This document shows positions 7,361 through 51,210 of a DNA stretch of 64,000 nt, piece after piece. This DNA comes from Tahibacter soli (GTDB lineage Bacteria; Pseudomonadota; Gammaproteobacteria; Xanthomonadales; Rhodanobacteraceae): positions 744,001 through 808,000 of the forward strand of contig NZ_JAOVZO020000020.1 of NCBI RefSeq assembly GCF_025717065.2. The letters are read 5' to 3'. The notes beneath the pieces were generated by a model. The model was not told the DNA's origin, did no database searches, and saw only the letters and a list, made by a program, of their open reading frames with translations. The number at the start of each line of letters is the position of its first letter. Position 1 is the first letter of the stretch. A program made the translations under genes and the position numbers.

Positions 7361-7695
7361 CTCGTCATCCAGCGAACGCTGGGATCCAGCCCTTGATTGT
7401 CGCTTTGTAGTTTTTGCCCGGCTTTAAACAAAGCGTTTCGCTCGCTGCCGCGAGCGAGCAAGGAGAGGTTGCTTGCCCAACCCCTCCCTGCACCCTCCAA
7501 GGGCACCCCGACGGCCGCGGTCTCCGGGCATCCATGCCCTCCGACTCCGCGAGATCGCTCCGGGGTTCGTTGATGGGCCATCCATGGCCCGTCAACGAAC
7601 TGCGCGCACCCGCTGCTCGGGCTTTTCCTCCGCAATCTCGCCGCGACCGACGGGGCCCCGGGTAGAGCGGGCGGCTTCCTGCCGCCAGAAGCAAC
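7361..7695 (+). repeat. Composite dispersed repeat, copy A (335 bp)
   Basis: It begins with a REP-type palindrome (CGTCATCC ... GCTGGGATCC, 7363-7390). It then runs through a conserved body containing CTTTGTAG, a palindromic GGGCCATCCATGGCCC core and GGGGCCCCGGG, and ends GCCGCCAGAAGCAAC. Related copies lie at 50355-50699 (reverse orientation) and 60295-60729. It carries no plausible gene of its own; the open frames in it are compositional. Confidence 0.8.
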
Positions 7696-14699: not shown

Positions 14700-14870
14700 G
14701 GGAAAGCCGGAGGCTGCGGAGACTGGACACCCAGAAACTGCGGAGACTGGACACCCAGAAACTGTGCGGAGACCGGGGACTGGACACCGGAAAACTGGCC
14801 CCCGGAAACCGCACGGAGACCGCGCGGAAACTGGACACCTGAAAACCGGGAGGCGGAGACCGGGCAACCC
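14700..14870. repeat. Octamer array 1 (GGACACCC orientation), 24-bp tandem unit
   Basis: Exact GGACACCC occurs at 14725 and 14749 within a 24-bp tandem unit (CGGAGACTGGACACCCAGAA...). Variants GGACACCG (14782) and GGACACCT (14833) follow. The same octamer in the opposite orientation (GGGTGTCC) forms array 2 on the other side of the RAYT gene. The remainder of the 14551-15028 gap (478 bases) holds nothing else I recognise. Confidence 0.8.
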
Positions 14871-15028
14871 GACTTTCGTCGCTGACGAAAGCCATATCTC
14901 AGACAGCCGGCATCGTGGCGCCCGGCATTTTCTCGCGAAGGGTGACACCATTGCCTCGACCGATATCGTGGCCAGCGCGAGCGCGCCGACGAGGGCGAAT
15001 TCACTGGCCGAACGTCACGGAATCCGGT

Positions 15029-15982
15029 TCAGATCGTCTCGAGCCGACGTGCGAACGCCAGTCCCTTCAACCATCGCTGGCCGAGTTCGGCAGCTTTGTC
15101 GACCATCGCGTCGACGAGCCCGATCGCGCGCCAGTAGTGCGACTGCGTTCCTCGCACTTGCAGCAACCACGCGTTCTCGGAAAGGCCGAGGCGTTTGACG
15201 ACGGAAGGCAGCGATCGATCGATGGCACCGGGCTTCCCCGCATGCAACAACCGCCCGGTTTCGTCGACGAGCAGCAGGTATTCGCGTGCACTTACGCCAA
15301 GCGCGGGACCGGCTCCCGCAACGGTCGACAACGGCTCGTCCGGTGCGCGCCGCCGCATGTCGTCACTTCTTCGCCGAAACGAAACGTGCTCCGCCGCTTC
15401 GGGTGTTGCAACGTTCCCGGCCCGGACAGGATTCAAATCGACATACGTCATCGCGCTCAGTACGGCCGCTTCGTCGAGCAGCGCCTGACAGCGAAACCGG
15501 CCCTCCCAGAAGCGTCCCGTGCAGCCATCCTCGACATTCGCGGCCCGTGCAATCGATTCGTTGAGAAATCGCATGAACCAGCTCAGGCTCGCGAGGCGCG
15601 CGCGATACTCGGCAATGCGCGCTTCGTTGCCTGCCGATGCCTGCGCACGCGCTTCGATCGTTGCCTCGGTATCACCGGCGCGACGCGACACCGAGAACCA
15701 GCGACGCAAAACATCCACCGCGTCCCGCGCGTCCGCGGAGGCCGGATTCGTCTGAATGACCAGATGAACGTGGTTGCTCATCACGGCATACGCGTAGATG
15801 CCGATCGCGAAACGTGCGGCGAGCGCGAAGATTCGCTTTTCTATCCAATTCTTGCGATGCGAGAAATCGCGGCCCGTCAATGGGTCGCGCCCGCAAAGCA
15901 AGGCGCGGCGCACACAGCGCGAGACGACGTGATAGGTACCGGAAGCCTGCGCGTCCACGATGTATCGGCGAGCGATCGTCAT
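15029..15982 (-). CDS. RAYT (REP-associated tyrosine transposase, IS200/Y1-like)
   Basis: A 317-residue protein of the TnpA-REP family. It begins with the typical ARRYIVDAQASGTYHVVSRCVRR segment (start cut at MTIARR), carries the metal-binding HUH motif in AVMSNHVHLVIQ (about residue 80), and has the conserved FWEGRFRCQALLDEAAVLSA and TYVDLNPVRAG helix with the candidate catalytic Tyr. RAYTs are domesticated single-strand transposases that process REP sequences. The gene is framed by inverted arrays of an octamer, as expected of a REPtron. I chose the ATG at 15982; in-frame ATGs at 16018, 16072 and 16108 are possible. The frame stays open to 16198, but that part translates the octamer repeats. 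It shows no terminal inverted repeats of a complete IS. Confidence 0.85.
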   Translation of the reverse strand: MTIARRYIVDAQASGTYHVVSRCVRRALLCGRDPLTGRDFSHRKNWIEKRIFALAARFAIGIYAYAVMSNHVHLVIQTNPASADARDAVDVLRRWFSVSRRAGDTEATIEARAQASAGNEARIAEYRARLASLSWFMRFLNESIARAANVEDGCTGRFWEGRFRCQALLDEAAVLSAMTYVDLNPVRAGNVATPEAAEHVSFRRRSDDMRRRAPDEPLSTVAGAGPALGVSAREYLLLVDETGRLLHAGKPGAIDRSLPSVVKRLGLSENAWLLQVRGTQSHYWRAIGLVDAMVDKAAELGQRWLKGLAFARRLETI

Positions 15983-16111
15983 GCGCAGCAGTGTCGACTC
16001 GCGTCGCGCCGAAAGCATCGGCGAACGGCTGGTGCGGGGCTGGGATTCCTCCGATTGCGACGCCACCGACATCGGACTTACGGGGTGCGGGTCTTGCACA
16101 ATCAGCATGTT

Positions 16112-16196
16112 GGGTGTCCGTGATTGATTGGTGTTCGAGCACGCAGATCCGGGTGTCCAATATCGGGTGTCCGATATCGGCAGATTTTGGGTGTCC
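16112..16196. repeat. Octamer array 2 (GGGTGTCC orientation)
   Basis: Exact GGGTGTCC occurs four times at 16112, 16151, 16165 and 16189. Three copies are followed by (A/G)ATATC, and CCGATATCGG forms a 10-bp palindrome at 16171-16180. The array lies directly upstream of the RAYT gene, in inverted orientation relative to array 1. The rest of 15983-16328 (346 bases) holds the osmC promoter region; no other gene is visible. Confidence 0.85.
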
Positions 16197-16799: not shown

Positions 16800-18110
16800 T
16801 CAGTTCAACCCCGCCTCGCCGGCGATGACCGCCGCGTTCATCTTGAGGATCGCCGAGCCCATCGCGTGTGCGTTCGGGCCGATGTTCGCCGGCAGATCGG
16901 TGCTCTTGTGGTAGTGCGGATAGATGTCGTAGTCCGACTCGATCGCGAGCACCGCCTGCTTGTTCGCCTGCAGGTACGGCATGTGGTCGGAGCCGAACGG
17001 ATTGGTGCTCAGCGTCACGTTCAGCGCCGGCACGTAGGTGGCCGCCGCCGCGCCGAACTTCTGCAGGTACGTGTTGTAGCGACTGTAGGTTTCGACGTCC
17101 GCATTCAGGCGGTTGTCGGCGCTGTAGCCGATCATGTCCATGATCACGACCGACTTCACTTTCGCCAGATTTCCACTCTGCCGCAACTGCGATACGTGCG
17201 CGGCGCTGCCGTAGAGGTTCTGCTCTTCGCCCGCGTAGCACATGAACAGCACGCTGCGCTGCGGCCGGTTCGCCACCAGCACGCGCGCGAGCTCGATCAC
17301 GCCGGCGCAGCCGGTCGCGTTGTCCTCGGCGCCCGGCGCGTTCGTCGTGCTGGAAAGATTCGTATTGCGCGAGTCGTAGTGGCCGCCGACGACGATCCAT
17401 TCGTTCGGCAGCGTCGTGCCGGTCCACGTGCCGACGACGTTCGTGCGCGAGATCGTGCCGCCGCCCGAGCCCGGCATCGAGAACGCGGGCTTGGTCACGG
17501 TCAGGCCCAGCGACGAGAAGCGGTTGCCGATCCAGTCGCGCGCCTGCGTCAGCGACGTCGTGCCATAGCTCGAACGGCTCCAGCCGGCGAGCGTCGTCAC
17601 GTCGCCGAACCAGCGCTGCGCGTCGATCGCGTCGACCACCGCCTGCACCGATGCGACGCGCGGCGCCGGCGCGATGCCCGAAAGCCGAAACTGCTGCGCG
17701 ACGACGGTGTTCGGTTCGATCGCGCGCCACTCGTTTTCGGCGTCGCCGGCGAACGACGGCATCTTCTCGTTCGCGCCGAGCCGGCGCAGCTCCCACCGGC
17801 CGCCGCGCGCGATCAGCTTGCCGGCTTCGACCGCGTGCTCCTTGCAGCCGCGCGCGCGCAGCGCGAACTGCGACGGCGCGACGTCGGCGATTTCGCCGAG
17901 CACGTCGCGCTTGCGCGCCAGGCGCAGCATCGGTTCGCGGTCGCCGGCGATCAGGAGGCGGTCGCCGAGTTCGAGCCACCAGCGCACGCCCGCGCCGTGC
18001 TTGAGCGCTTCGACCTGGGCGATATCGGCGGTACTGATGTCCACGACGGCGGCGTGATCGCCCTTCGCGGCGGCGGGAATGCTCAACATCAAGGCAAGAG
18101 CGGCAAGCAT
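16800..18110 (-). CDS. Secreted M28 family zinc aminopeptidase, paralog 1
   Basis: A 436-residue exported peptidase with a signal peptide (MLAALALMLSIPAAA), a propeptide-like region of about 140 residues and an M28 catalytic domain. The di-zinc ligands and catalytic residues are visible: HYDSRN (His about 244), GAEDNATG (Asp), AGEEQ (catalytic Glu plus Glu ligand, about 294), MDMIGY (Asp) and HYHKSTD (final His). An AGGAG-type ribosome site precedes the ATG (CTCCT at 18115-18119 on the plus strand). It is a close tandem paralog of 18226-19584 but stops right after the catalytic domain, without the IFxxGFE tail of its neighbour. The 115-base gap between them contains no repeat. Confidence 0.9.
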   Translation of the reverse strand: MLAALALMLSIPAAAKGDHAAVVDISTADIAQVEALKHGAGVRWWLELGDRLLIAGDREPMLRLARKRDVLGEIADVAPSQFALRARGCKEHAVEAGKLIARGGRWELRRLGANEKMPSFAGDAENEWRAIEPNTVVAQQFRLSGIAPAPRVASVQAVVDAIDAQRWFGDVTTLAGWSRSSYGTTSLTQARDWIGNRFSSLGLTVTKPAFSMPGSGGGTISRTNVVGTWTGTTLPNEWIVVGGHYDSRNTNLSSTTNAPGAEDNATGCAGVIELARVLVANRPQRSVLFMCYAGEEQNLYGSAAHVSQLRQSGNLAKVKSVVIMDMIGYSADNRLNADVETYSRYNTYLQKFGAAAATYVPALNVTLSTNPFGSDHMPYLQANKQAVLAIESDYDIYPHYHKSTDLPANIGPNAHAMGSAILKMNAAVIAGEAGLN

Positions 18111-18225: not shown

Positions 18226-19584
18226 TTATTCGAAGCCGTCCTCGAAGATCCGATCGGTGACCGCAGGCTGCGCGGTCGTGCCGGTTTCGTCCGCGAGCAC
18301 CGCGACGTTCGTCTTCAGGATCGCGCCGCCCATCGCCTGCGCGTTCGGGCCGATGTTGGCCGGCAGGTCGGTGCTCTTGTGGTAGTGCGGATAGACGTCG
18401 TAGTCCGATTCGATCGCGAGCACGGTCGGCTTGCCGGCGCCCAGGTACGGCATGTGGTCGGAACCGAACGGATTCGTGCTCAGCGTCACCTGCAGCGCCG
18501 GCACGTACGTCGCCGCGGCGGCGGCGAACTTGTTCATATAGGCAGAATGCGTCGCATACGTTTCGTAGTCGGCGTTGAGCACGTTGTTCGCGCTGTAGCC
18601 GATCATGTCCATGATGACGACCGACCTCACCTTCGCGAGGTCGCCGTTCGCCTGCAGTTCGGCGACGTGCGCCTTGCTGCCGTAAAGACTCTGCTCCTCG
18701 CCGGCGTAGCACATGAACACCACGCTGCGCCGCGGCCGGTTCGGCACGAGCGCGCGCGCCATTTCGATGACGCCCGCGCAGCCGGTCGCGTTGTCCTCGG
18801 CGCCCGGTGTGTTCGTCGTGCTCGACGCGGTCTGATTGCGCGAGTCGTAGTGCCCGCCGACGACGACCCATTCGTTCGGCAGATCGGTGCCGGTCCACGT
18901 GCCGACGACGTTGCTGCGCGTGATCGTGCCGCTCGTGCCGGGCATCGAGAACGTCGGCTTCGTCACCGCAAGGCCGAGACCGGCGAACTGCGTGCCGATC
19001 CAGTCGCGCGCGGCGGTCAGCGACGTCGTGCCGTAGCTCGATCGATCCCAGCTCGCGAGCGTCGTGACGTCGGCGAACCAGCGCTGCGTGTCGATCGCGT
19101 CGACGATCGGCTGGATCGTCGGATCGGCCGCGGCCGGCGCGATGCCTTCGAGCCGGTACTGTCGCGAGATCACCGTGTTGGGCGTGAACGCGCGCCAGCC
19201 GCCGTGCGCGTCGGTGACGAACGCGGGCTTGGCTTCGCCCGCGGCAAAGCGGCGCAGTTCCCAGCGTCCGCCGCGCGCGATCAGCGTACCGGCGTCGCCC
19301 GCATGTTCGGCGCAGCCGCGCGCGCGCAGTGCAAGGTCGCCGGGCGCGACGGCCGACAGTTCGCCGAGCAGGTCGCGCTTGCCGGCAAGGCTCAGCATCG
19401 GTTCGCGGTCGCCGCCGACGACGAGGCGGTCGCCGAGTTCGAGCCACCAGCGCACGCCGTCGCCGTGCTTGAGCGCTTCGACGCGCGCGTTGTCGGCGGT
19501 GCCGATGTCGACGACGAGCACGTCGTCGCCCGCCGCGGCTGCTGCCACGGGCAGGCTCAGCATCAGGGGAATCGCTGTCAACAT
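18226..19584 (-). CDS. Secreted M28 family zinc aminopeptidase, paralog 2 with IFEDGFE tail
   Basis: A 452-residue tandem paralog of the gene at 16800-18110, with matching segments throughout (for example VEALKHGDGVRWWLELGDR). It has a signal peptide (MLTAIPLMLSLPVAAAAAG). Its M28 residues are complete: HYDSRN, GAEDNATG, AGEEQ, MDMIGYS and HYHKSTD. It differs at the end: about 15 extra residues finish with DRIFEDGFE, close to the IFANGFEAQ ending of the nuclease at 1-3698. This tail may be a sorting or surface-attachment signal (inference). I start at the ATG 19584; the upstream in-frame extension to 19803 precedes the signal peptide and overlaps the neighbouring gene's 3' end. Confidence 0.9.
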   Translation of the reverse strand: MLTAIPLMLSLPVAAAAAGDDVLVVDIGTADNARVEALKHGDGVRWWLELGDRLVVGGDREPMLSLAGKRDLLGELSAVAPGDLALRARGCAEHAGDAGTLIARGGRWELRRFAAGEAKPAFVTDAHGGWRAFTPNTVISRQYRLEGIAPAAADPTIQPIVDAIDTQRWFADVTTLASWDRSSYGTTSLTAARDWIGTQFAGLGLAVTKPTFSMPGTSGTITRSNVVGTWTGTDLPNEWVVVGGHYDSRNQTASSTTNTPGAEDNATGCAGVIEMARALVPNRPRRSVVFMCYAGEEQSLYGSKAHVAELQANGDLAKVRSVVIMDMIGYSANNVLNADYETYATHSAYMNKFAAAAATYVPALQVTLSTNPFGSDHMPYLGAGKPTVLAIESDYDVYPHYHKSTDLPANIGPNAQAMGGAILKTNVAVLADETGTTAQPAVTDRIFEDGFE

Positions 19585-19694
19585 GAACGGTCCGCGCAGT
19601 AGTCGTAACAGGCCGAGTGTAGCCGCCCGGGAGCGGCGGCGACTGTGGCAATTCCTCAATTTATTCCAACGTATGGTCGCGATCCGGCGCGGGA

Positions 19695-20441
19695 CTATTC
19701 GAAATACAGCGAAAAGCCGATGCCGCCCTGGACGTCGGGCGCAGCGTCGTTGACGCCGAAGTCCATCGAGAAGTCCAGTTGCAGCCGCGGTGTGGCCATC
19801 CACGTGACGCCGCCGCCGGCGACGCGCGTTGCCGGGCCGTGTTCGGGATACTCGAAGCCCGCTTCGAAGAATGCGCCGAAACGCTCGCTGACCGTAAAGC
19901 CGAGGCCCGGCGACCAGGCACGCGTGCTTTCGCCGCCCGAACGGCTGGCGGCGAGATACAGCGACGACGACACGACATCGGAAAGGTCGTAGCCGAACGT
20001 CGTCGCGAGGCTATATTCGGTGTCGCCGTTCGTGAACGCGCGCGAGCCGGTGTCGAACGTCGCGCCGGCGAGCACGGCCCACGAGAATTTTTCGGCACGC
20101 GAGGGCAGTGCGATCTTCACCGCCACGCCGCTGTCGCCGCCGCCACGCTCGGTCGGCGCGCCGCGCACGTGCGCGACGTTGAACGGCGAGCCGGACACCT
20201 GCACTTCGACGCCGTCGGCGAGCCCGATGCGCAGGTTCGTGTTCGCGGCATACTGCGTGGCGCGCGTGCCGCCGTCGTCGTCGCGTTGAAAATCCGGCAG
20301 CCCCTGCTCCCACGACACGCCGCCGCGCGGCAGCGTCGTCGTCGAGAACGCGATGCCGGGCCGGTCGAACGCCGGCGTGTCGGCGTGCGCCGTCGTGGCC
20401 GCGAATGCCGCGACGAGCGCGGCGAGGTAGCGTCGTTGCAT
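19695..20441 (-). CDS. Outer-membrane-type beta-barrel protein (phenol-degradation MetA-like)
   Basis: A 248-residue protein with a signal peptide (MQRRYLAALVAAFAATTAHA). It is a run of amphipathic beta strands, alternating polar and hydrophobic residues, ending in an aromatic strand (GGIGFSLYFE). The pattern (TxLPRGxxxWEQGLPDFQRD near 35-55, then repeated short strands with FDTGSRAFTNGD) is like the outer-membrane MetA/phenol-degradation-associated family (PF13557-like), whose members are transporters or pores of mostly unknown substrate. Start at 20441; the frame is open further upstream only because it translates octamer array 3. It is the first gene left of that array and converges with nothing. 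Confidence 0.65.
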   Translation of the reverse strand: MQRRYLAALVAAFAATTAHADTPAFDRPGIAFSTTTLPRGGVSWEQGLPDFQRDDDGGTRATQYAANTNLRIGLADGVEVQVSGSPFNVAHVRGAPTERGGGDSGVAVKIALPSRAEKFSWAVLAGATFDTGSRAFTNGDTEYSLATTFGYDLSDVVSSSLYLAASRSGGESTRAWSPGLGFTVSERFGAFFEAGFEYPEHGPATRVAGGGVTWMATPRLQLDFSMDFGVNDAAPDVQGGIGFSLYFE

Positions 20442-20466
20442 GTCTGACCCCGCGTCTTGATTCGTT

Positions 20467-20637
20467 GGATGTCCCGGAGCGGACCCGAAGCCCGCATAGC
20501 GGCCCCGCATGATGATTCGTTGGGTGTCCCGAAACCCCTCGGGTGTCCCTAAACCCGCGTCGGGTGTCCCGAAACCCCATCGTGATTCGTTGGGTGTCCC
20601 GAAACCCCATCGTGATTCGTCGGGTGTCCCGAAACCC
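20467..20637. repeat. Octamer array 3 (GGGTGTCCCGAAACCC, 30-bp unit)
   Basis: GGGTGTCC occurs exactly at 20522, 20541, 20562, 20592 and 20622, with a variant GGATGTCC at 20467. The last copies sit in a 30-bp tandem unit (GTGATTCGT(T/C)GGGTGTCCC then GAAACCCCA). GGGT...ACCC can form short hairpins within each unit. The array fills most of the 20442-20721 gap between two divergent genes, so it also spans their promoters. Confidence 0.85.
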
Positions 20638-50160: not shown

Positions 50161-50214
50161 TCTTGTAGCAAAAGATAATTCAAGCGAACGTCGACGACGA
50201 CGAAGAAGCGACGG

Positions 50215-50360
50215 CGGTTGCGGTTGCGGTTGCCGTTGCGGTTGCCGTTGCGGTTGCGGTTGCGGTTGCGGTTGCCGTTGCGGTTGCCGTTGCGGTTGCC
50301 GTTGCGGTTGCCGTTGCGGTTGCCGTTGCGGTTGCCGTTGCGGTTGCCGTTGCCGTTGCT
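50215..50360. repeat. Hexanucleotide run (GGTTGC/CGTTGC), about 24 copies
   Basis: An uninterrupted run of about 24 hexamers, mixing GGTTGC and CGTTGC (GCAACC/GCAACG on the other strand), directly abuts composite repeat copy B. Open frames through it would encode Ala-Thr or Arg-Leu repeats and are not taken as genes. Confidence 0.9.
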
Positions 50361-50699
50361 TCTGGCGGCAGGAAGCCGCCCGCTCTACCCGGGGCCCCGT
50401 CGGCCGCGGCGAGATTGCGGAGGATCAGCCCGCGCAGCGGGTGCGCACAGGATGTGCGCAGTTCGTTGACGGGCCATGGATGGCCCATCAACGAACCCCG
50501 GAGCAAGCTCGCGGAGTCGGAGGGCAGGATGCCCGGAGACCGCGGCCGTCGGGGTGTCCTTTGGGGATGCAAGGGGAATTTGGACAAGCAAATTCCCTTG
50601 CCCGCTCGCGGCAGCGAGCGGAACGCTTTGTCTAAAGCCAGACAAAAACTACAAAGCGACAAGAAAAAGCTGGATCCCAGCGTTCGCTGGGATGACGAG
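50355..50699 (-). repeat. Composite dispersed repeat, copy B (reverse orientation)
   Basis: Read on the minus strand it begins with the REP palindrome (CTCGTCATCCCAGCG..., right end), passes the same body as copy A with a GGGCCATCCATGGCCCG-type core and GGGGCCCCGGG, and ends GCCGCCAGAAGCAAC beside the hexamer run. Confidence 0.85.
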
Positions 50700-51194
50700 C
50701 CAAAAGCAACGTCAAAGGCGCTCTTGGAGGGTGCAGGGAGGGGTTGGGCAAGCAACCTCTCCTTGCCCGCTCGCGGCAGCGAGCGGAACGCTTTGTCTAA
50801 AGCCAGACAAAAGCTACAAAGCGACAAGAAAAAGCTGGATCCCAGCGTTCGCTGGGATGACGAGCCAAAAGCAACGTCAAAGGCGCTCTTGGAGGGTGCA
50901 GGGAGGGGTTGGGCAAGCAACCTCTCCTTGCCCGCTCGCGGCAGCGAGCGGAACGCTTTGTCTAAAGTCAGACAAAAACTACAAAGCGACATGAAAAAGC
51001 TGGATCCCAGCGTTCGCTGGGATGACGAGCCAAAAGCAACGTCAAAGGCGCTCTTGGAGGGTGCAGGGAGGGGTTGGGCAAGCAACCTCTCCTTGCCCGC
51101 TCGCGGCAGCGAGCGGAACGCTCTGTCTAAAGCCAGACAAAAACTACAAAGCGACAAGAAAAAGCTGGATCCCAGCGTTCGCTGGGATGACGAG
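50700..51194. repeat. Three 165-bp direct tandem repeats
   Basis: Units 50700-50864, 50865-51029 and 51030-51194 are each 165 bp and nearly identical. Each contains GGAGGGTGCAGGGAGGGG, the CTTTGTCTAAAG palindrome region and a terminal REP (GGATCCCAGCGTTCGCTGGG ATGACGAG). They repeat the right-hand part of copy B. As 165 is a multiple of three, they create long but meaningless open frames on both strands. Confidence 0.9.
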
Positions 51195-51210
51195 CAATGG
51201 CAAGATCAAG

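Follow-up and report, generated by a model that had tools for sequence, protein, structure and literature searches.

The best-known feature of HUH transposases is single-strand transposition guided by hairpins. Among the REP-associated tyrosine transposases (RAYTs; REP, repetitive extragenic palindrome), subclass 2.3 of the TnpA-Y1/TnpA-REP family comprises proteins of about 325 aa whose core contains inserts and whose C-terminal tail is long, and automatic and manual searches failed to find REP-like flanks in subclasses 2.1 and 2.3 (PMC6006769). In some TIRtrons, families of the terminal inverted repeats (TIRs) recur at other genomic sites as dimers or in clusters, and GGGGWSAS is common to some TIRs (PMC3733652); of 26 TIRtron cases, 20 belong to subclass 2.1 and the remaining six to 2.2 and 2.5 (PMC6006769). 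Here we describe a stretch of 64,000 nucleotides from Tahibacter soli (contig NZ_JAOVZO020000020.1, positions 744,001 to 808,000; hereafter the window), in which a RAYT gene lies between inverted copies of an octamer. From sequence comparisons we propose, with a probability of about 0.8, that a core of the form TG-NN-TG[T/G]C[C/T] represents the sequence-coded TIRs of a mobile element of 1.2-1.5 kb with the RAYT as its sole gene.

Comparison of related loci establishes three properties of this core, which flanks the gene on either side in inverted orientation and with fairly constant spacing, coincides with a homology boundary and is specific to one RAYT group.

The RAYT gene and its flanking cores

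The gene occupies 15029..15982 on the minus strand as an uninterrupted open reading frame (ORF) for a Y1/HUH transposase of 317 aa, as indicated by Pfam and NCBIfam models, an alignment and a predicted structure. Its profile scores fall below the cut-offs (Pfam Y1_Tnp, 21.4 bits, cut-off 23; NCBIfam REP_Tyr_transpos, 45.4 bits, cut-off 80), and a sequence search against solved structures gave no match at E 10. The HUH motif corresponds to H71-V-H73 and the putative catalytic tyrosine to Y180 within Y-V-D-L-N-P; H71, H73, Y180, N184 and P185 were invariant in an alignment of 52 chosen RAYTs, so that the protein carries the HUH and Y---NP signature of class 2. The predicted model (predicted local distance difference test score, pLDDT, 88; predicted template-modelling score, pTM, 0.90), in which residues 200-317 form a helical C-terminal part, had as its top match in the PDB 4er8, a RAYT in complex with a REP hairpin (E 1.3e-5, target-normalised TM 0.72), followed by ISDra2, IS608 and further IS200-type transposases. 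The predicted fold is that of a RAYT, with the E. coli protein of 4er8 as the closest.

To the left of the gene stands GGACACCC and to the right GGGTGTCC, and exact octamers are found where the preliminary description of this stretch had placed its inverted arrays, at 14725 and 14749 on the left and at 16112, 16151, 16165 and 16189 on the right. The downstream (3') array, on the minus strand, comprises an outer TGGGTGTCC core at 14725..14733, a second TGGGTGTCC at 14749..14757, 24 bp from the first, and two degenerate GGACACC cores, one at 14782..14788 with 7 of the 8 octamer bases and one at 14833..14839, the closest to the RAYT 3' end, whose distance of 189 nt falls inside the usual downstream range of the relatives described below. 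The upstream array, on the plus strand, begins with the TGGGTGTCC core closest to the RAYT start (16111..16119, 128 nt upstream), continues with GGGTGTCC at 16151..16158 and 16165..16172 and ends with the outermost TGGGTGTCC copy at 16188..16196. By analogy with multi-copy relatives, the element including its end arrays would extend over 14725..16196 (unstranded). About two octamers are expected per 64 kb; the window has six exact ones in a stretch of about 1.5 kb, with an orientation that depends on the side. As had been noted, the left side does have a 24-bp tandem and the right side a AATATCGG context with ATATC neighbours, but neither is the repeat unit, which is the 9-nt core with its variable middle; the copies in relatives have the core in common and not those contexts. 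An orphan array of this core, made up of one TGGATGTCC and five GGGTGTCC copies, lies on the plus strand at 20466..20629, 4.3 kb to the right of the upstream array and probably between two divergent genes, whose starts are placed by inference as the listed ORFs overlap the array.

Tandem pairs of the octamer (20-48 nt long) number 77 in the source genome (G000) versus none for the reversed control word. A minisatellite at G000:C20:497679-497974, with 19 copies of a 16-bp unit starting with the octamer, supplies 18 of the 77. A protein search of this genome gave 13 RAYT matches, eight of them full or near-full length. Within 700 nt of these eight, GTGTCCA was found in TIR sense, that is, as the reverse complement of the word on the upstream side and as the forward word on the downstream side, at 8/8 loci with no opposite case, and GGGTGTC at 7/8 with one opposite case. 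A pair of inverted arrays of the octamer, at C3:819.0 and C3:820.4 kb, pointed to a RAYT between them that was outside the seven Pfam hits and is 74% identical to the window copy. At L002/L006 (G000:C1:342.6-345.1 kb), an intact RAYT is followed less than 1 kb further on by a broken copy, with cores between.

Across eight Tahibacter genomes, tandem octamer pairs and RAYT matches numbered respectively 77 and 12 in G000, 65 and 24 in G374, 44 and 9 in G372, 11 and 2 in G367, 3 and 2 in G373, 3 and 0 in G371, 0 and 0 in G370, and 0 and 12 in G369; the matches, up to 24 per genome, include fragments, and the reversed control gave no tandem pair in any of the eight. The idea that octamer pairs would be absent from RAYT-less congeners thus held for G370 but not for G371, and the RAYT-bearing G369 lacks them too. 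The flanks of the G369 matches, examined at 7 of the 12, carry variant cores, mostly TGGNTGGC or TGGTTGTCC instead of GGGTGTCC and often after TTCCGAATCR (e.g. L178, L186, L195, L198). An inverted pair of cores flanking AAYGCCGATTC, usually a 37-bp unit, recurs at five places in three Tahibacter genomes (L267 in G370, which has no RAYT match, L269 in G373, and L270, C14 and C61 in G374); this unit is a possible REPIN-like non-autonomous relic. In a quick tree, the eight G000 RAYTs formed one clade beside a mostly Wenzhouxiangella group (support 83) and apart from the other Tahibacter loci, a placement consistent with each species having gained and amplified the gene separately.

The core in distant relatives and in other RAYTs

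As relatives we took the best 80 of 464 loci matched by a six-gene profile, none of which exceeds 52% identity. Their hosts include Dyella, Dokdonella, Wenzhouxiangella, Pleionea, Aliikangiella, Alteromonas, Photobacterium, Marinobacter, Pseudoalteromonas, Chromatiales and others, and three loci come from metagenome-assembled genomes labelled Phycisphaerae or Verrucomicrobiales. GGGTGTC ranked first of all 7-mers in their 600-nt flanks, in TIR sense at 44/80 loci versus 8/80 in the opposite sense, and occurred at 6/80 in far flanks 1.5-2.4 kb away. Many loci without it have the sister words TGACTGTCC, TGCCTGTCC, TGGCTGTCC and TGTCTGTCC, and the general core is of 9 nt, TG-NN-TG[T/G]C[C/T], in which the middle NN is GG, GA, AG, AC, CC, GC, GT or CG and base 7 is T, sometimes G and rarely A. 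The Pleionea and Aliikangiella loci mostly have the word minus its leading T.

Within 300 nt, the core was present upstream at 53/75 relatives (opposite orientation 8, shuffled 8.3), downstream at 49/75 (opposite 5, shuffled 6.0) and on both sides at 41/75; loci with short flanks, 3-5 of the 80 relatives and 1-2 of 30 Tahibacter loci, were omitted from these counts. Among the Tahibacter loci, of which 28 of 30 have full flanks, the core was on both sides at 17/28. In the combined set of 110 loci (80 relatives and 30 Tahibacter loci, with L069 and L177 one locus counted twice), 80 have an upstream core within 300 nt, and in 32 of those 80 the nearest one lies 75-79 nt from the match start. A second motif, TGTA[A/G]GA, occurs inside the 5' end, in the upstream 300 nt of 28/80 relatives versus the downstream 450 nt of 3/80, and sits 44 or 20-23 nt from the core in several loci (e.g. 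L086, L088, L098, L106); it could be part of a promoter or a one-sided GTAG guide.

The core is close to background around other RAYTs of the same class. We used as a control the 30 loci (L237-L266) scoring best against NCBIfam REP_Tyr_transpos, of which four were omitted and 26 had full 300-nt flanks; the core was on both sides at 0/26, upstream at 1/26 (2 opposite) and downstream at 2/26 (2 opposite). The same word count gave GATTGGG in the flanks of 16/30 of these loci, with one opposite case, and so detects the repeat of another group too.

A survey of 369 genomes of the class, in which a genome was scored RAYT-positive if it held a relative of the window RAYT at E <=1e-10, associated the repeat with the gene. 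Tandem GGGTGTC[CT] pairs occurred in 32/61 RAYT-positive versus 38/308 RAYT-negative genomes (Fisher p 4e-11, a guide only, since the genomes are mutually related), and at least two such pairs in 21/61 versus 5/308, while pairs of the reversed word showed no association (10/61 versus 36/308). Pair totals were 50 versus 52 for the control in RAYT-negative genomes and 217 versus 21 in RAYT-positive ones, the 217 dropping to 128 without the two Tahibacter. The type of core also followed the RAYT tree, with 36 changes versus a shuffled mean of 49.3 and minimum of 45 in 100 shuffles (87 of the 110 rows labelled, 23 unlabelled), and base 7 alone gave 8 changes versus 10.8 shuffled. As core type fits the tree better than shuffled labels, ends and genes appear to be inherited together.

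Homology edges and alternative readings

If the core is the end of the element, homology between differently placed copies should end at it. We examined all 71 pairs with at least 78% identity over at least 700 nt and excluded two that shared their context or ran off the end, including L069/L177, the same locus in two collections and 100% identical. The remaining 69 pairs had 16 upstream and 21 downstream edges without a core or without an extension to compare. The homology edge lay at most 14 nt from the outer border of the core at 41/53 upstream and 18/48 downstream edges, where 200 runs with randomly placed cores gave means of 5.6/53 (maximum 11) and 5.1/48 (maximum 12); the word in opposite orientation was found at 1/20 upstream and 2/11 downstream edges. 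In the best case, L130/L141, which comes from a hand-picked list of 23 pairs, the values were 88 versus 85 and 229 versus 228.

Genome G321 has six RAYT copies, 83-92% identical and of 337-339 aa, every one starting at AGGACAGCCAC and with a TGGCTGTCC core 125-281 nt past the stop codon. The RAYT is the sole ORF of at least 100 aa between the cores in all six. Homology reaches 7-24 nt from the downstream core in L215, L217, L218 and L219, and three of the six have nothing obvious in common outside the upstream core. The sequence outside the core shows a weak preference for YRRWT.

These data suggest a mechanism. The octamer would be the conserved part of the 9-nt core, which the RAYT would recognise by sequence at both ends, nicking DNA at its outer edge or no more than a few bases from it, after which the cut ends would be joined elsewhere. 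The tandem arrays and short inverted pairs might have arisen as these sites were processed repeatedly, incompletely or in trans, and the 16-bp minisatellite of G000, built on the octamer, could be another product of such sites. The variation of NN and base 7 between lineages would reflect an enzyme and ends inherited together, with coevolution as a further conjecture. Published RAYTs cleave at CT or CA dinucleotides (PMC8266576); CT stands at the end of the core in just 78/160 instances, so CT cleavage is no general rule here and serves as a lead only. The wider proposition, that this is a Y1 HUH group which reads its ends by linear sequence as true TIRs rather than hairpins, still forms a mobile self-contained element rather than a domesticated housekeeping enzyme, and has a two-base code (TG-NN-TGTCC) coevolving with the enzyme by lineage, we regard as evenly poised.

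Several observations weigh against the proposal that the cores are element ends. The single octamer is only about 1.25-fold more frequent than its reversed control genome-wide (205 versus 164 in 6.65 Mb), and the core is absent within 300 nt upstream of 22/75 and downstream of 26/75 relatives. At 19/48 downstream edges the alignment stops short, at least 100 nt from any core, and 15 of the 71 pairs stem from G321 alone. In that genome, L216 and L220 diverge from the rest near the gene end, before the downstream core, and L215, L217 and L218 have some 7 nt (AAAATCC) in common outside the upstream core. The same-genome copies compared reach up to 96% DNA identity and none are identical, so no very recent move is seen. 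Three attempts found no empty site: OsmC homologues in five congeners (52-54% identity) had neither tested window neighbour within 1.5 kb (or before the contig end), the flank of a copy in G352 matched one of 18 genomes, itself, and an attempt in one genus, with a single genome, gave none. The RAYT-less G371 has three tandem pairs and the RAYT-less G370 one inverted pair, perhaps relics. Loci, pairs and genomes are phylogenetically non-independent, and a core inherited with its gene would track the tree even without a functional link.

The best surviving alternative, which we nevertheless judge improbable, is a classical REPtron, in which GT[AG]G stands at the foot of a hairpin, structure is what is recognised and the octamer is merely part of a REP. 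The fold of the protein agrees with this, single loci are able to form hairpins, and TGTA[A/G]GA inside the 5' end of 28/80 relatives would offer a guide; this motif is one-sided, however, with 28 loci upstream versus 3 downstream. The core is often preceded by G, giving GTGG in 42/160 instances, but 45.2 are expected under independence. Flanks of 40 nt on the inner and outer sides of the core folded no better than dinucleotide shuffles (mean z 0.07, -0.13, -0.17 and -0.19 over 160 instances), and segments of about 70 nt inside the upstream end or spanning the core gave z of -0.46, -0.35 and -0.42 versus -0.41 in a gene-interior control; only the segment inside the downstream end was lower (-0.82), a mild excess. 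A symmetric stem around the core paired at 36.7% versus 31.6% shuffled (z 3.7, the best of 36 offsets), which we considered too weak to retain the GG-GTGT-CC hairpin with covarying stem that ATATCGGGTGTCCGATAT had prompted. Neither the GT[AG]G and hairpin REPs of canonical REPtrons nor the subterminal hairpins inside both ends of IS200/IS605 were found in these tests, with none upstream and the mild excess downstream. The preliminary description was right that these units are unlike the usual GTAG-plus-hairpin REPs: a core without a hairpin is closer to the TIRs of TIRtrons. Its proposal of a distinct substrate class for the window RAYT likewise gains support from the comparisons, namely the fixed orientation across the class, the homology edges and the background level at canonical RAYTs.

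Somewhat less credible still is that the core is an operator or promoter element through which the RAYT gene regulates itself, spread by local tandem duplication and marking no element end. The spacing of 75-79 nt in 32 of the 80 loci with an upstream copy would suit it, as would a stretch resembling the -10 box consensus between core and gene in several relatives. It does not lead one to expect an inverted downstream copy (49/75), homology edges at the core or arrays far from RAYTs. Possibly a TIR doubles as part of the promoter.

Very unlikely, in our estimation, is that the RAYT is a passenger in a unit mobilised by some other transposase that recognises the core. DDE elements typically have TIRs, and cleavage by the RAYT is our inference; against this stand the absence of any other ORF of at least 100 aa between the cores of the six G321 copies, the association of core pairs with the RAYT over 369 genomes and the fit of core type to the RAYT tree. 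Accidental clustering of a G+C-rich octamer, which could appeal to the 1.25-fold excess over the reversed control, is contradicted by orientation, k-mer rank, controls and homology edges, and we give it practically no credence.

Neighbouring sequence and comparison with known systems

Elsewhere in the window, 16800-18110 and 18226-19803, both on the minus strand, are adjacent genes with similar proteins, probably a tandem duplication, which presumably resemble M28-type peptidases. A dispersed repeat of about 340 bp, seen at five places that are 81-91% identical by longest matches, lies within 50335-51195, adjoined by a 165-bp tandem repeat (3.7 copies, 50580-51195) and with a hexamer array, GCGGTT x24, beside it at 50214-50359. 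GTTGACGGGCCATGGATGGCCCATCAACGAACC, with a palindromic centre, occurs at 7576 and 50477 in opposite orientations, 43 kb apart. Rfam gave no match in the window.

Judged by length, taxonomy and signature, the window RAYT group is probably subclass 2.3 (PMC6006769). Both consist of long RAYTs (median 325 aa there versus 317 here and 337-339 in G321), both carry the Y---NP signature with several diverged copies per genome, and the Chromatiales and Alteromonadales hosts of that subclass are matched by Alteromonas, Pseudoalteromonas and Chromatiales among our relatives. They differ in that no REP-like flanks are reported for subclass 2.3, whereas here an inverted, sequence-coded core flanks the gene. 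Among the matches listed for openly licensed PMC text (figures and supplements lying outside its scope), none linked GGACACCC or GGGTGTCC to RAYTs in its title or the start of its abstract. If the group is indeed 2.3, the core would supply a testable substrate where the literature states a blank; the lack of a detected conserved hairpin may explain why hairpin-based searches missed the ends, and some RAYTs would still be mobile elements whose ends are defined.

TIRtrons (TIRYT; Di Nocera et al. 2013, PMC3733652) resemble the present element in that RAYT-like genes have TIRs unrelated to GTAG REPs, which is also what we find. Their GGGGWSAS was present in TIR sense within 300 nt at 0/75 relatives upstream and 1/75 downstream; the present element instead has TGNNTGTCC as its core, which is associated with homology edges. 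REPtrons and REPINs (PMC2817692, PMC8266576, PMC6006769) likewise have inverted repeats around the RAYT, copies elsewhere and short inverted pairs, but there each REP is a hairpin accompanied by a GT[AG]G guide, whereas here about 9 nt are conserved with no hairpin excess.

IS200/IS605 elements share with this group a Y1 HUH transposase, and the window model matches those of ISDra2 and IS608. To our knowledge, the ends of IS200/IS605 are not terminal inverted repeats. Their transposases are described as binding subterminal hairpins at both ends (PMC6006769), and inverted, hairpin-free ends such as those proposed here would require a different pairing and cutting of the two ends.
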